Below are positions 3,332 to 42,286 of a DNA stretch of 64,000 nucleotides, one piece after another. How positions within the stretch are numbered: position 1 is the first letter of the stretch; every line of letters starts with the position of its first letter. The translations under genes and the position numbers were made by a program. This DNA is from an uncultured Pelagibacteraceae bacterium (GTDB lineage Bacteria; Pseudomonadota; Alphaproteobacteria; Pelagibacterales; Pelagibacteraceae): assembly GCA_902533075.1 (NCBI GenBank), contig CACAKN010000001.1, forward strand, positions 62,001 to 126,000, written 5' to 3'. The notes under the pieces were generated by a model. The model made no database searches, was not told where the DNA came from, and saw only the letters and a program-made list of their open reading frames with translations.

Positions 3332-3370
3332 GGGGCGATGGCGGAATTGGTAGACGCGTTGGTCTTAGGA
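3332..3370 (+). pseudogene. 5' half of host tRNA-Leu(TAG), interrupted in the anticodon loop (attL)
   Basis: GGGGCGATGGCGGAATTGGTAGACGCGTTGGTCTTAGGA; joins 40794-40839 to form a complete 85-nt tRNA-Leu. Confidence 0.92.
3362..3370 (+). other. attL core (GTCTTAGGA)
   Basis: 9 bp identical to 40785-40793; 14 bp with one mismatch (CGTTgGTCTTAGGA vs CGTTaGTCTTAGGA). Confidence 0.85.
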
Positions 3371-3537: not shown

Positions 3538-4506
3538 ATGTCCGATATATTAAATCAACAACAACAAGACCTACAATTACAATTACAAGAACTTGTCAAA
3601 GTAGGCGTGGGTGGCAAGTTTAAAGATAATTCAGATTATACAAAACGTATTCAAGAAGAATTAGAATTTGAAGACGCTATGCTACAAGGTGGTATAGACC
3701 GTTTCAGAAAGACCGTAAAAGACGCTATTACTAAAGGTCAAGAAAGTACAACACTTCACGGTCTAGTTTTACAACAAAAATATATAACTAAACTGTCCTT
3801 ATTAATTAATGGTGATATTAAGACTATGGAAGATGGTGGCGCAGGTAATCGAATGACTGCACTAAAACTATTGTGTCAATGTTTACCAAAATCAGCTTTT
3901 GATAAAGGTGTATTTCTTTCTAAAGAACATACAGTTTGGGATACTTGTTCGTTGATAGTTTTGAAGAATACAATTGATGGTATCAGCAACGAAACTACAA
4001 TGAATAAACTAGCTATAAAGATTGGAACTGGCTTGATGATGGAAGCTAGAATAACGATGTTTAAGGATAGAGATAAAGAAAATTATAATAGGATATATAA
4101 AAGACTTGCAGGAAAGAACATACCTCAGAAGGTAAATAGGTATCAATATAAGCATAAAGTTTGGACTTATATGATTAATAAAAACCAACTGGAGTTTGAC
4201 GATTGGGGCAAGGAAGGGAGACTTCATCTTGGAGTTAAGATGATTGGTTTTCTAGAAAAACTGGGTTTAGTAAAACACCAGAATAGAAAGCTAAATAAAT
4301 TCAAGACAGTCACTTATGTTGAAGCTACTAGAAAAATCATAGACGAGATTAGGAATTTCAATATTAAGAATGAAGCACTTCAACCTAAATACCTTCCAAT
4401 GTTAATGCCACCTAGAAAATGGGAATATAATCCTTTTGTCGGTGGATATTATGGAAGAAAACACAATCACGAAAACAAACCAGATGAGGTTAAAAATGCA
4501 CTATAA
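3538..4506 (+). CDS. T7-like RNA polymerase, N-terminal part (split gene)
   Basis: N-terminal T7 RNAP-like sequence ending in PPRKWEYNPFVGGYYGRK (cf. T7 PPKPWTGITGGGYW); stop before the palm domain. Confidence 0.8.
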   Translation: MSDILNQQQQDLQLQLQELVKVGVGGKFKDNSDYTKRIQEELEFEDAMLQGGIDRFRKTVKDAITKGQESTTLHGLVLQQKYITKLSLLINGDIKTMEDGGAGNRMTALKLLCQCLPKSAFDKGVFLSKEHTVWDTCSLIVLKNTIDGISNETTMNKLAIKIGTGLMMEARITMFKDRDKENYNRIYKRLAGKNIPQKVNRYQYKHKVWTYMINKNQLEFDDWGKEGRLHLGVKMIGFLEKLGLVKHQNRKLNKFKTVTYVEATRKIIDEIRNFNIKNEALQPKYLPMLMPPRKWEYNPFVGGYYGRKHNHENKPDEVKNAL

Positions 4507-6166
4507 TTTAGTAAAAGCGTCAAACAGAAGATACTTAGAAGAACTTAAAAATAGAGGTCACGAAATGAAAGACCTTTACGATAGCATAAATATTATGCAG
4601 GAAACTGAATGGGTTATAAATAAACCTGTTTTAGATGTCATAGAAACATTAATTAAAAAAGATGTGACTTTGGGAAAGCTACCAGTAAATCCTCAAAGTA
4701 TGGAACTTCCAGTCAAACCAATAGATATAGCCACTAATAAGGAGAGTTTAGTTAGATGGAAAAGAGAAGCGTCTAATATTTACAAAGAACAAGCTAAATC
4801 AAAATCTAAATATATACAGGTAAGGCAAATTCTTGAAGAAGCTAATTTATTAAAAGATAGGTCTTTCTTCTTTCCTCACCAAATAGACTTTAGGTCAAGA
4901 GGTTATCCAAAACCTGCAATGTTATCTCCACAAGGTGCTGACTATTCTAGAGCATTACTTAAATTTAAGTATGGAAAACAAATGAAAGAGAATAGTAGTT
5001 TTGATAGTTTTGCAATTGCAGGTGCAGGATTATTTGGAGAAGTAGATAAAGAAGACATTCAAACAAGATTAGATTGGGTTAAAGATAATATGCAACAGTT
5101 TATAAATTGTGCAAAGAACCCATTAGAAGATACTTATTGGTCACAAGCTGATAAATCATTTTGTTTTCTTGCTTGGTGTTTTGAACTCAAAGACTTTGCA
5201 GAAACAGACTTTGACGCTAGTTTTATTACTACACTACCAATACAATCAGACTGTAGTAATTCTGGTTTACAACATTATTCAGCTATGATGAGAGACGAAA
5301 TAGGTGGTAAAGCTACTAATCTAATTCCATCAAATAAACCTGAAGATGTTTACAGAACTGTATCTGAAAAAGTGATAGAAAAATTAGAAGTAAATCCTGA
5401 CCCACTAGCTAAGAAGTGGTTAGATTATGGTGTAGACAGAAAGCTATGTAAGAAACCTGTAATGTGTTTACCATATTCTTTAACTCAATATTCCTGTAGG
5501 CAATATCTGCAAGACCACGTTGAAAAAGAATTAAAAGAACGTGGAGTACAACATAACTTCGGTAAAGATTTATTTAAAGCTACTAACTTTCTTCAACCAA
5601 TTGTTTGGTCAAGTATTAATGATGTAATAGTTGGTGCAAAAGAGATTATGGATTTTTTGAAAAAAGTATCTCGATTAGTTGCTTCAGAAAACTTACCAGT
5701 GACTTGGACAACACCTTTAGGATTTCCAGTACAAATGATGTGTTATAAAAAAGAAAGCAAAAGAGTGAAGACTAAGATGGGAGACAGTATAATTAAATTA
5801 TCTATACAATCAGATACTGATGTAATTGATAAAAGAAAAACTGCACAATCTATTTGTCCTAACTTTATACACTCTCTTGACGCTAGTGTTTTACATTTAG
5901 CAGTTGTTAAAGCTAAACAAAAAGGAGTGACTAACTTTAGTTTAATTCACGATAGTTTTGGTTGTGTAGCACCTGATGTAGATATGTTGTCAGAAGCTAT
6001 AAGAGAAGCATTTTGTGAAATATATGAAAATGATGTTCTTGCTAACTGGGCGATGGAAATGAGACAAATGCTTTCTTATAAGAATATGAAGAAATTTCCT
6101 AATATTCCTCAAAGAGGAAACTTGGATTTAGCTTTAGTAAAGCAAAGTGTCTTTTTTTGCGTCTAA
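4451..6166 (+). CDS. T7-like RNA polymerase, C-terminal catalytic part (split gene, +1 frame)
   Basis: FPHQIDFRSRGY, DCSNSGLQHYSAMMRDEIGG, CKKPVMCLPY, LIHDSFG motifs; candidate ATG at 4451 (track starts at TTG 4436). Confidence 0.9.
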   Translation: MEENTITKTNQMRLKMHYNLVKASNRRYLEELKNRGHEMKDLYDSINIMQETEWVINKPVLDVIETLIKKDVTLGKLPVNPQSMELPVKPIDIATNKESLVRWKREASNIYKEQAKSKSKYIQVRQILEEANLLKDRSFFFPHQIDFRSRGYPKPAMLSPQGADYSRALLKFKYGKQMKENSSFDSFAIAGAGLFGEVDKEDIQTRLDWVKDNMQQFINCAKNPLEDTYWSQADKSFCFLAWCFELKDFAETDFDASFITTLPIQSDCSNSGLQHYSAMMRDEIGGKATNLIPSNKPEDVYRTVSEKVIEKLEVNPDPLAKKWLDYGVDRKLCKKPVMCLPYSLTQYSCRQYLQDHVEKELKERGVQHNFGKDLFKATNFLQPIVWSSINDVIVGAKEIMDFLKKVSRLVASENLPVTWTTPLGFPVQMMCYKKESKRVKTKMGDSIIKLSIQSDTDVIDKRKTAQSICPNFIHSLDASVLHLAVVKAKQKGVTNFSLIHDSFGCVAPDVDMLSEAIREAFCEIYENDVLANWAMEMRQMLSYKNMKKFPNIPQRGNLDLALVKQSVFFCV

Positions 6167-38885: not shown

Positions 38886-39288
38886 TATTCACTTTGATAA
38901 AGTGTTTATGCAAGAAGTAGCAAAGTCTAAGGCGAAGACTTTTGGTAATGGTATTCCATTACAATTGGTCTTAACATTTAAGACACTCTCTTGTTTACCT
39001 GATGGTCAAGAATTAAACACTCAGGTTATAAGAGAATGGTATCACAAGTTTTTTGGAGTTGTGATTTCCTTGTCTTCAATATCTCGAAATGTAAGTGATT
39101 TACATACTCTAGGTTTCGTTGAAAGAGTAGTAAATCCATTCGAGAATAGAAGATTAAGTTGGATTAAATTAACACCAACAGGAAGAAGACTTCAAAAACT
39201 CTTTATTGGAACTACGTCAGATTGGAAAGATGTGCCGAAGTTGAAGATAGAGAACCAAGTAAAAACTGCAAGGAGTATAAAAATATGA
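38860..39288 (+). CDS. winged-helix (MarR-like) transcriptional regulator
   Basis: ISLSSISRNVSDLHTLGFVERVVNPFENRRLSWIKLTPTGRRLQKLF. Confidence 0.7.
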   Translation: MSYSCTTSNIHFDKVFMQEVAKSKAKTFGNGIPLQLVLTFKTLSCLPDGQELNTQVIREWYHKFFGVVISLSSISRNVSDLHTLGFVERVVNPFENRRLSWIKLTPTGRRLQKLFIGTTSDWKDVPKLKIENQVKTARSIKI

Positions 39289-40562
39289 GACAAGCAGTAA
39301 AAGCAAAAATCCTTGAAGCATTACCGAAAGGTATAACTTTAAGGCGTGATAATTCTTTATGGGTATCTAAGTATAAAGAGTACCACGTAAACGGTGAGAA
39401 GAAGTCGAAGCGTATGACTGAAACCGTAAAGTTAGATATTGATAATACAATGTCTGACGCTAAACAGTTGGAGAAGTTTGAGGAAGCACTTGGTAAAGCA
39501 ATCAAGGTGAAGTCTCAAATGAAAGACCGTTTAGCAAACAGAAGTTTCCTTCTGACTGATAATGTAAAGATTAAGGGTGAAGCATATATCAATAATCTTT
39601 ATCAAGACCTAGTTAGATTGGATACTTGGAAAGGAAAGCACGGTGAAACTGTTGCTAGTTATGCTAAAGATATATTGGCTTTCTTTAAGGACAGGGAAAA
39701 CTTAAATCCTAAACTTAAAGATTTTCACGATGTATTTACTTTAGCTGACTTCAAGAAATGGGCGATTGTTCATTCAGCACAAAAGAGAATGAATAATTAT
39801 AATTCTTGTAGCACTAATACCGTGAACAAACGATTAGGTTTGTTAAGGCAACTAACTCAATTTGCAATTAAACAAAGACTGTTTAGTCTTGATGATTGTA
39901 TTGACCCAAGTGCAAAAAACTATGGGATACAAGATGAGAGACGTGCTGAGAGTAAACCTAAACCTGCCTTATCAATTGCAGAAGAACAAACATTATTAAA
40001 AACCATTCAGAAGTACGAAGATGGTTATTTTTATGATGTGATAGTTTTTGCACTAGATACAGGTGTACGTCACGATGGAGAACTAAATAGAATAACACCA
40101 GAACAAATTGATTTTGGTAAAAAACATTTAGTCTTCAAAAGACCTAAAACTGGTAAATGGTCTACTATACCTTTGACTGAAAGATGTATGGAGATATTAA
40201 AAAGAAGACGTGAAGTTGCTATGAAGAATGTAGGCAACCGTTTCTTTCCTATATCTAAATCTTCTTTAAGACATAACTGGTATAAGTATATCAAAGTATC
40301 AGGATTAAATAATGAGTATACACCTTACTCAACAAGACACACTTTTATTACTAGGTTAGTAGAAGCTGATGTAAGTCCAAAAGCAGTTCAGCATTTAGCA
40401 GGACATAAGTCTATTGAGACTACACTTCAGTACTACACGCATAGTACAAATGAGGTGCTTGAAACTGCTATAACTAAATTAGAGGAATACAAGAAAGTTA
40501 AAGCTAAAAAAGCTGAAGTATCACCTTTGATTGGTCACAATAGTAGAAAGGTGTTGAAGTAA
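39285..40562 (+). CDS. int: tyrosine recombinase / integrase
   Basis: DTGVRHDGELNRI, TPYSTRHTFITRLVEADVSPKAVQHLAGHKSIETTLQYYTH; ATG 39285. Confidence 0.95.
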   Translation: MRQAVKAKILEALPKGITLRRDNSLWVSKYKEYHVNGEKKSKRMTETVKLDIDNTMSDAKQLEKFEEALGKAIKVKSQMKDRLANRSFLLTDNVKIKGEAYINNLYQDLVRLDTWKGKHGETVASYAKDILAFFKDRENLNPKLKDFHDVFTLADFKKWAIVHSAQKRMNNYNSCSTNTVNKRLGLLRQLTQFAIKQRLFSLDDCIDPSAKNYGIQDERRAESKPKPALSIAEEQTLLKTIQKYEDGYFYDVIVFALDTGVRHDGELNRITPEQIDFGKKHLVFKRPKTGKWSTIPLTERCMEILKRRREVAMKNVGNRFFPISKSSLRHNWYKYIKVSGLNNEYTPYSTRHTFITRLVEADVSPKAVQHLAGHKSIETTLQYYTHSTNEVLETAITKLEEYKKVKAKKAEVSPLIGHNSRKVLK

Positions 40563-40598: not shown

Positions 40599-40682
40599 GG
40601 GCGAGTGGTGGAACGGTAGACACGCCAGTCTTAGGAACTGGTCTCGAAAGAGGTGGAAGTTCGAGTCTTCTCTCGCCTACCA
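40599..40682 (+). tRNA. phage-encoded tRNA-Leu(TAG)
   Basis: 84-nt tRNA, acceptor GGGCGAG/CTCGCCT, anticodon stem-loop CCAGT-CTTAGGA-ACTGG, CCA encoded. Confidence 0.92.
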
Positions 40683-40736: not shown

Positions 40737-40784
40737 GGGTGAAGAAAGGAGTGTTGGTAGTTAAAGATTTTGTAAGATACGTTA

Positions 40785-40793
40785 GTCTTAGGA
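40785..40793 (+). other. attR core (GTCTTAGGA)
   Basis: Identical to 3362-3370. Confidence 0.85.
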
Positions 40794-40839
40794 ACCAATA
40801 TGGCAACATGTGAAGGTTCGAGTCCTTTTCGCCCTACCA
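40794..40839 (+). pseudogene. 3' half of host tRNA-Leu(TAG)
   Basis: ACCAATATGGCAACATGTGAAGGTTCGAGTCCTTTTCGCCCTACCA. Confidence 0.92.
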
Positions 40840-40852
40840 TTTAAAAAAATTT

Positions 40853-42286
40853 ATGAAAGTTACGGTAGAAAACAAAAAAGGTTTAAATAAAGATCTTAAG
40901 ATATTCATAGATAAAAAAACTATGAACTCTTATTTAGATGAAAAATACGAGGAAATTAAAGGTACGGTAAACTTAAAAGGTTTTAGACCAGGAAAAGTTC
41001 CTAGGGAAATATTAAAAAGACAATTTGGGCAAGCAGTATTTAACGAAGTGCTGGATAAAGTTTTAAAAGATACAACTGCAAAAGCTTTAGAAGAAAATAA
41101 AATTAAGCCAGCAGGTCAACCAAAGTTAGATCTTAAAACTTATGGTGAAAATAAAGATTTAGAGTACATAATTTCAGTTACTGAATTACCTAAAGTAGAA
41201 ATTAAATCACTTGAAAATATAAAATTTGATGAATATTTAGTTAAGATAGATGAAAAAGAAACTGAAAAAAGAATTAATGAAATTGCAAAGAATCAACCAA
41301 GTTTTAAAGAGGCACCAGATGATAGCAAAGCAAAAAACGGAGATCTTGTAGTTTTTGATTATACAGCGACAGTAGATGAAAAAAATTTTAAAGGTAGTGA
41401 AGGAAAAAATACTCAATTAACTTTAGGAAAAGATTTATTTTTAAAAGGTTTTGACAAACAATTAATTGATGTAAAAAAAGGTGAGGAAAGAACAGTAGAA
41501 GCGACTTTACCTGATAATTTTCCTGAAAAAGATTTTATAAATAAAAAAGCTAAATTCAAATGTAAAATTATATCAGTTAAAAATCCTGAAACAGTTAAAG
41601 TTAACGATGAATTTGCAAAAAATTTAGGAGCCAAAGATTTAAATAACCTGAAAATTTTAATATCTAAACAAATAAACGATGAGTATAAAAATTCATTAGA
41701 TAGACTTTCTAAAAATCAAATTTTAAAGGAACTTGAAAAAATTAAAATAAATGAAATTCCTGAAAATCTAATTGAAGAAGAAGTGAAAATACTTTCACAA
41801 GGCATGTCTGAAGAAGATGCAAAAAAAAGCCGAAAAAATTTTGAGGAAGTAGCAAAAAAAAGAATAAAAGTAGGTTTAATATTAAATGAATTTGGTGAAC
41901 AAAATAAAATTAAAGTCACAGAACAAGAACTTCAAGCTGAGGTTCAAAAACAATTAAGAATGATGCCAGGACAAGAAAAAATGGTTATGGACTTTTACCA
42001 AAAAAATCAATCTGCGTTAGCTAGTTTAAGAGGAACTGTTTATGAAGAAAAAATTATGAATTTAATAAAGGAAAAAGGTAAATCAAATAAAAAAGAAATA
42101 TCAAAAGAAGAAGCTGAAAAAATATTAAAACAATCACAAAAACAAGAGCTTGATCAAGAACTTAAAGATCAAAGGAAATCTGAAAAAAAGGTTGAAGTAA
42201 AAAAATCTTCAGAGAACAAAACTAAGACAAAACCGACAAAAACTAAATCAGCCGACAAAAAATCAAAAAAAGTTAGCAAAAAGTAA
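40853..42286 (+). CDS. tig: trigger factor
   Basis: [29 protein letters not shown]-like domain. Confidence 0.96.

Follow-up and report, generated by a model that had tools for sequence, protein, structure and literature searches.

The prophage and the host gene that it splits

We focused on one window, i.e., the whole stretch of 64,000 nucleotides analyzed here, which lies on contig C1 of a genome assembly of 970 kb (37 contigs, 75% complete). It contains a prophage (Table 1) with PHROGs hits for an RNA polymerase, a DNA polymerase, a head-tail adaptor, a major head protein, a terminase large subunit, and an integrase. Its relatives include the phages HTVC011P, HTVC025P, and HTVC041P and the environmental phage S30-C28, and related lysogens from GTDB are assemblies of uncultured Pelagibacteraceae (SAR11). 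The integrase is 86 to 88% identical to those of the closest prophages and 31 to 52% identical to those of HTVC011P, HTVC025P, HTVC041P, Gjalp, and genome G161. The T7-like RNA polymerase is encoded in the window by two overlapping open reading frames (ORFs) (3538-4506 and 4436-6166), which match positions 3 to 260 and 258 to 814 of phrog_414, respectively.

Table 1. Features of the prophage and its integration site (window coordinates)
Feature	Coordinates	Strand	Basis or remark
attL: 5' part of the host tRNA-Leu(UAG) gene, ending in the 9-bp core GTCTTAGGA (3362-3370)	3332-3370	+	100% match to positions 1-39 of the 85-nt intact gene
Prophage, ∼37.4 kb, T7-like (Autographiviridae) pelagiphage	3371-40793		PHROGs hits and relatives
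Tyrosine integrase, 425 aa from ATG	39285-40562	+	phrog_1 integrase, E = 2.2e-44
Phage tRNA-Leu(UAG), CCA end encoded, discriminator A	40599-40682	+	ARAGORN; RF00005, 53.5 bits
attR: core GTCTTAGGA (40785-40793) and 3' part of the host tRNA-Leu(UAG) gene	40785-40839	+	98% match to positions 26-85 of the intact gene
Host gene directly 3' of attR, putative trigger factor (tig)	40853-42286	+	ORF; read from translation and position

The two ends of the prophage carry the two parts of a host tRNA-Leu(UAG) gene. When these halves are joined over the 9 bp that they share, the result is an 85-nt tRNA-Leu(UAG) gene, which three relatives (G017, G078, and G088) have in intact form with 100% identity. 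In the window's own genome, a search with the rejoined gene recovered it only in two pieces, 3332-3370 (query positions 1-39, 100% identity) and 40780-40839 (query positions 26-85, 98% identity), together with weaker matches to the phage tRNA and to another Leu tRNA. The shared core comprises the whole 7-nt anticodon loop and two bases of the anticodon stem. The unsplit attP site, ACGTTAGTCTTAGGAGATACCGACACT (ACGTTAGTCTTAGGAGATACC...), can be read directly in free viral contigs, where its left side equals the attR side and its right side the attL side of the window. Taken together with the intact gene of the relatives, this establishes by sequence the insertion, its target, and the crossover region.

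ARAGORN called no tRNA at the attL or attR junction of the window. At attR of one other lysogen, G209, the program reported a hybrid tRNA (contig L034, 2970-3058), and the remaining lysogens gave no such call. Since this sole hybrid reaches only 24.6 bits with Infernal, below the 29-bit cutoff of RF00005, and has an overlong 5' half, we rejected the idea that attR rebuilds a tRNA. A further observation concerns lysogen G044, whose two junctions (L036 and L059) both read CTTAGAA, the loop sequence of the host genus, while the free relatives of its phage carry CTTAGGA; either attP varied or a mismatch within the core was settled in favor of the host's base.

The second tRNA-Leu of the locus starts 36 bp after the integrase stop codon. 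A preliminary description of this DNA had proposed a complete tRNA-Leu(TAG) between the integrase gene and attR, and ARAGORN and RF00005 placed it at exactly the coordinates given in Table 1. Being 75% identical to the rejoined host tRNA, it was not copied during this insertion, in line with the earlier claim that it is no duplication. That claim had been based on differences in the acceptor, D arm, variable arm, and T arm, a list that we would narrow: the divergence is strongest in the anticodon stem, the variable arm, and the outer T stem, but the D and T arms are partly shared with the host tRNA. Just upstream of the phage tRNA, a consensus scan, which is weak for SAR11, found no convincing promoter and nothing above chance.

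Copy number of tRNA-Leu(UAG) and use of CUA and CUG

To count tRNAs, we used RF00005 and then ARAGORN on the resulting loci. The Leu tRNAs of the assembly have the anticodons TAA, CAA, and GAG, plus the phage-borne TAG. A second, intact host tRNA-Leu(TAG) had been named as an observation that would speak against a replacement, and none was found in the 75% complete assembly, the missing 25% being a formal gap. The complete genome of G017, a relative with an intact gene, has 32 tRNA matches, with one TAG among those read with ARAGORN, and a search of it with the intact gene gave one full match. In lysogen G044, whose assembly is 94% complete, the phage copy is the only TAG. Across 297 genomes of the family, the intact anticodon-arm site is present once (≤3 mismatches) in 88 and twice in none, and it is absent from the window's own genome.

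All 12 host genes counted use CTA or CTG (60 codons altogether). Under standard decoding rules, Leu tRNAs with the anticodons UAA, CAA, and GAG are not expected to read CUA or CUG. On this basis, loss of tRNA-Leu(UAG) should be lethal. We infer that this tRNA is essential and that the lysogen depends on the prophage for it.

Linkage of the phage tRNA to the att core among relatives

Integrase relatives in 397 genomes of the family correspond to 7 prophages, all of which have a tRNA-Leu(TAG) just after the integrase gene. The same holds for 8 of 8 Pelagibacteraceae loci retrieved from GTDB, several of which are from the same genomes as the 7 prophages. HTVC011P, HTVC025P, HTVC041P, and S30-C28 each have a TAG tRNA after the integrase gene as well, although among these four it is annotated only in S30-C28. 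In IMG/VR, two alignment searches yielded 50 contigs with enough sequence; as single-sequence queries, the window integrase and the integrase of contig L138 each returned one viral contig. The core was scored as each phage's own anticodon loop; the pattern CTTAG[GA]A by itself misses L138. Each of the 50 contigs has, ≤450 bp downstream, a second copy of the anticodon loop of its own phage tRNA, compared with ∼1.6 expected from mononucleotide shuffles. The contigs represent 33 distinct tRNA/att pairs and thus not 50 independent events. The preliminary description had suggested a survey of related prophages for co-occurrence of the anticodon-loop site and the cognate tRNA, and this co-occurrence was found throughout: among the 50 viral contigs with a downstream core, no phage had this att core without the tRNA. 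Five near-identical contigs have no tRNA, and in these the core downstream of the integrase gene is likewise absent.

Several loci merit separate mention. Contigs L139, L140, L141, L142, and L147 encode an integrase that is 38 to 40% related, followed directly by an RNA polymerase-like gene, with neither a tRNA nor an att core between the two genes. Gjalp, for which no tRNA was called, was considered as a counterexample and dropped, since its record consists of N from the middle of an apparent tRNA-Leu start with CTTAGGA. Contigs L153, L162, L172, and L173 contain two core-like copies (CTTAGGA and CTTAGAA) ∼21 bp apart, 3' of the phage tRNA, of which one alone may be real. HTVC200P and HTVC119P have an opposite-strand tRNA-Leu(TAA) right beside the integrase gene (L031, 2787-2872, and L032, 2947-3032, respectively), possibly another replacement tRNA or att site.

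Contig L138 encodes a tRNA-Leu(TAA) (4091-4177), with an att core, GACTTAAAA, ∼125 bp further downstream. The SAR11 tRNA-Leu(UAA) gene has this very sequence as its anticodon loop. As read from this one contig, the tRNA and its predicted target have changed together, from Leu(UAG) to Leu(UAA); our searches found no lysogen of an L138-type phage.

To gain an idea about the origin of the phage tRNA, we compared it with host genes. Lysogens G044 and G310 have a phage tRNA with 87% identity to the host tRNA of the window's genus and no difference from it between the T arm and the 3' end. G044 itself belongs to another genus than the window's host, and the tRNA of that genus is 80% identical. This suggests that the phage tRNA may have been captured earlier from SAR11-like hosts. 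Hosts from two genera (G000/G302 and G209) harbor phages whose integrase and tRNA are essentially the same, indicating that the replacement tRNA travels with the phage. We lean, by a small margin of belief, toward the notion that the integrase gene, the replacement tRNA, and attP form a movable pelagiphage cassette, in which tRNA and core change together and match at the anticodon loop (with G or A at position 37 in some lineages), including one joint switch from Leu(UAG) to Leu(UAA). As near-identical phages with the same tRNA lysogenize different genera whose own tRNAs differ, the replacement tRNA may be what allows the phage to use a very short att core that is widely shared among hosts.

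Probable dependence of lysogeny on a phage-borne tRNA

The arrangement is very probably a case of tRNA-dependent lysogeny, in which the prophage breaks the host tRNA-Leu(UAG) gene and would supply its own replacement. The sequences show the split gene and an intact phage copy, which is unique in the assembly and linked to the att core in the relatives as well. The integrase would recombine the attP core with the identical 9 bp at the anticodon loop of an apparently single host tRNA-Leu(UAG) gene. Owing to the shortness of the shared sequence, the insertion does not restore this gene and leaves it as two stubs, the 5' one (on the promoter side) at attL and the 3' one at attR. The complete phage tRNA-Leu(UAG), located between the integrase gene and attP, would then read CUA and CUG instead; it is presumably transcribed in the lysogen and charged by the host leucyl-tRNA synthetase (LeuRS). 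We propose that the lysogen is viable because the phage brings this complete tRNA, as the preliminary description had suggested, and at the sequence level the proposal is supported by the lack of a second host copy in the assembly and by the match of tRNA and core in 50 of 50 contigs.

Phage tRNAs often aid translation or resist tRNA-cutting defense. Such roles, discussed in PMC10865867, raise the question of whether the tRNA could be cargo for the lytic phase, with its match to the broken gene being incidental. CTA is indeed somewhat more common in the phage genes (77/7470 codons, versus 49/5671 in host genes), and Leu tRNAs also occur in unrelated large phages. However, a role as cargo would not predict any link between tRNA and att site, whereas every relative has the tRNA between the integrase gene and attP, all 50 contigs show its match to the att core, and in L138 its isotype has switched along with the core; moreover, integration destroys the host gene, of which the assembly showed no other copy. 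We thus regard cargo as an unlikely sole explanation, while the cargo and replacement roles could coexist.

It is even less likely that we are looking at ordinary integration into a tRNA gene, with a junction that rebuilds a working host tRNA and a phage copy that is redundant. That is the usual arrangement at tRNA att sites (PMC10865867), and the hybrid called at attR of G209 fits it, but the subthreshold score of this hybrid, its overlong 5' half, and its absence from the other lysogens do not, and a core of only 9 bp with no tRNA called at either junction means that the window sequence itself contradicts a rebuilt gene. Least credible of all, and close to negligible, is an assembly artifact that misjoined two sequences. 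The fragmentation and incompleteness of the source would allow for one, yet independent genomes whose host flanks differ (G209, G302, G310, and G044) show the identical junction structure at this gene, which contradicts a misjoin, and attP is seen unsplit in viral contigs.

Chen et al. reportedly built on earlier work by Zhao et al. (Environ Microbiol 21:1989-2001). In their own study (Chen et al. 2019, mSystems; PMC6811365), the SAR11 podophages uv-Fonsiphage-EPL, HTVC011P, and HTVC025P belong to HTVC019Pvirus group III, which targets tRNA-Leu(TAG), next to trigger factor, through an identical core of 11 bp. The authors state that the phage's own tRNA-Leu replaces the lost host function; as far as we could see, they report no experimental test of the phage tRNA. 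The window prophage shares with group III the tRNA-Leu(TAG) target beside a (putative) trigger factor gene and a tRNA-Leu of its own, as well as the RNA polymerase gene split in two, a feature of all group III members but HTVC011P. It differs in representing a separate lineage with a diverged integrase, 31 to 34% identical to those of HTVC011P and HTVC025P, and in its shorter core of 9 bp.

The term tRNA-dependent lysogeny was defined by Guerrero-Bustamante and Hatfull (2024, mBio; PMC10865867) for the mycobacteriophages Fionnbharth, Gaia, and others, for which deletion proves that the phage tRNA is needed for lysogeny. These phages have a tyrosine integrase, a core of 8 to 17 bp in a host tRNA gene, no rebuilt tRNA, and a phage tRNA of the same isotype, and the window prophage agrees with them in its tyrosine integrase, its attB in a host tRNA gene, its short core, the lack of a rebuilt junction tRNA, and its own tRNA of the same isotype. 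The mycobacteriophage systems belong to another host phylum and another phage family and mostly involve tRNA-Lys, and the text of that article mentions neither pelagiphages nor SAR11. As far as it is described there, Lactobacillus johnsonii prophage Lj965 also rebuilds no tRNA and encodes the cognate one; this phage and its host are unrelated to those of the window. In Pelagibacter phage Eyrgjafa EXVC018P, whose integrase is 39% related, the phage tRNA-Leu resembles the host tRNA-Leu over the first 34 bases, which Buchholz et al. (2021; PMC8163748) read as a putative integration site and not as a replacement tRNA.

The swap as such is thus already described, for SAR11 phages at this very gene (PMC6811365) and, with proof of the mechanism, in mycobacteriophages (PMC10865867), and the window adds one more lysogen to the described pattern. 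What we did not find stated in the articles consulted is the breadth of the match between tRNA and core and the joint isotype switch in L138. The latter is a natural test that the tRNA serves to repair integration damage. T7-like pelagiphages thus commonly have, and closely conserve, the arrangement for which mycobacteriophages provide the proof, and lysogens among the highly abundant SAR11 bacteria of the ocean probably depend on a virus for the decoding of CUA and CUG.
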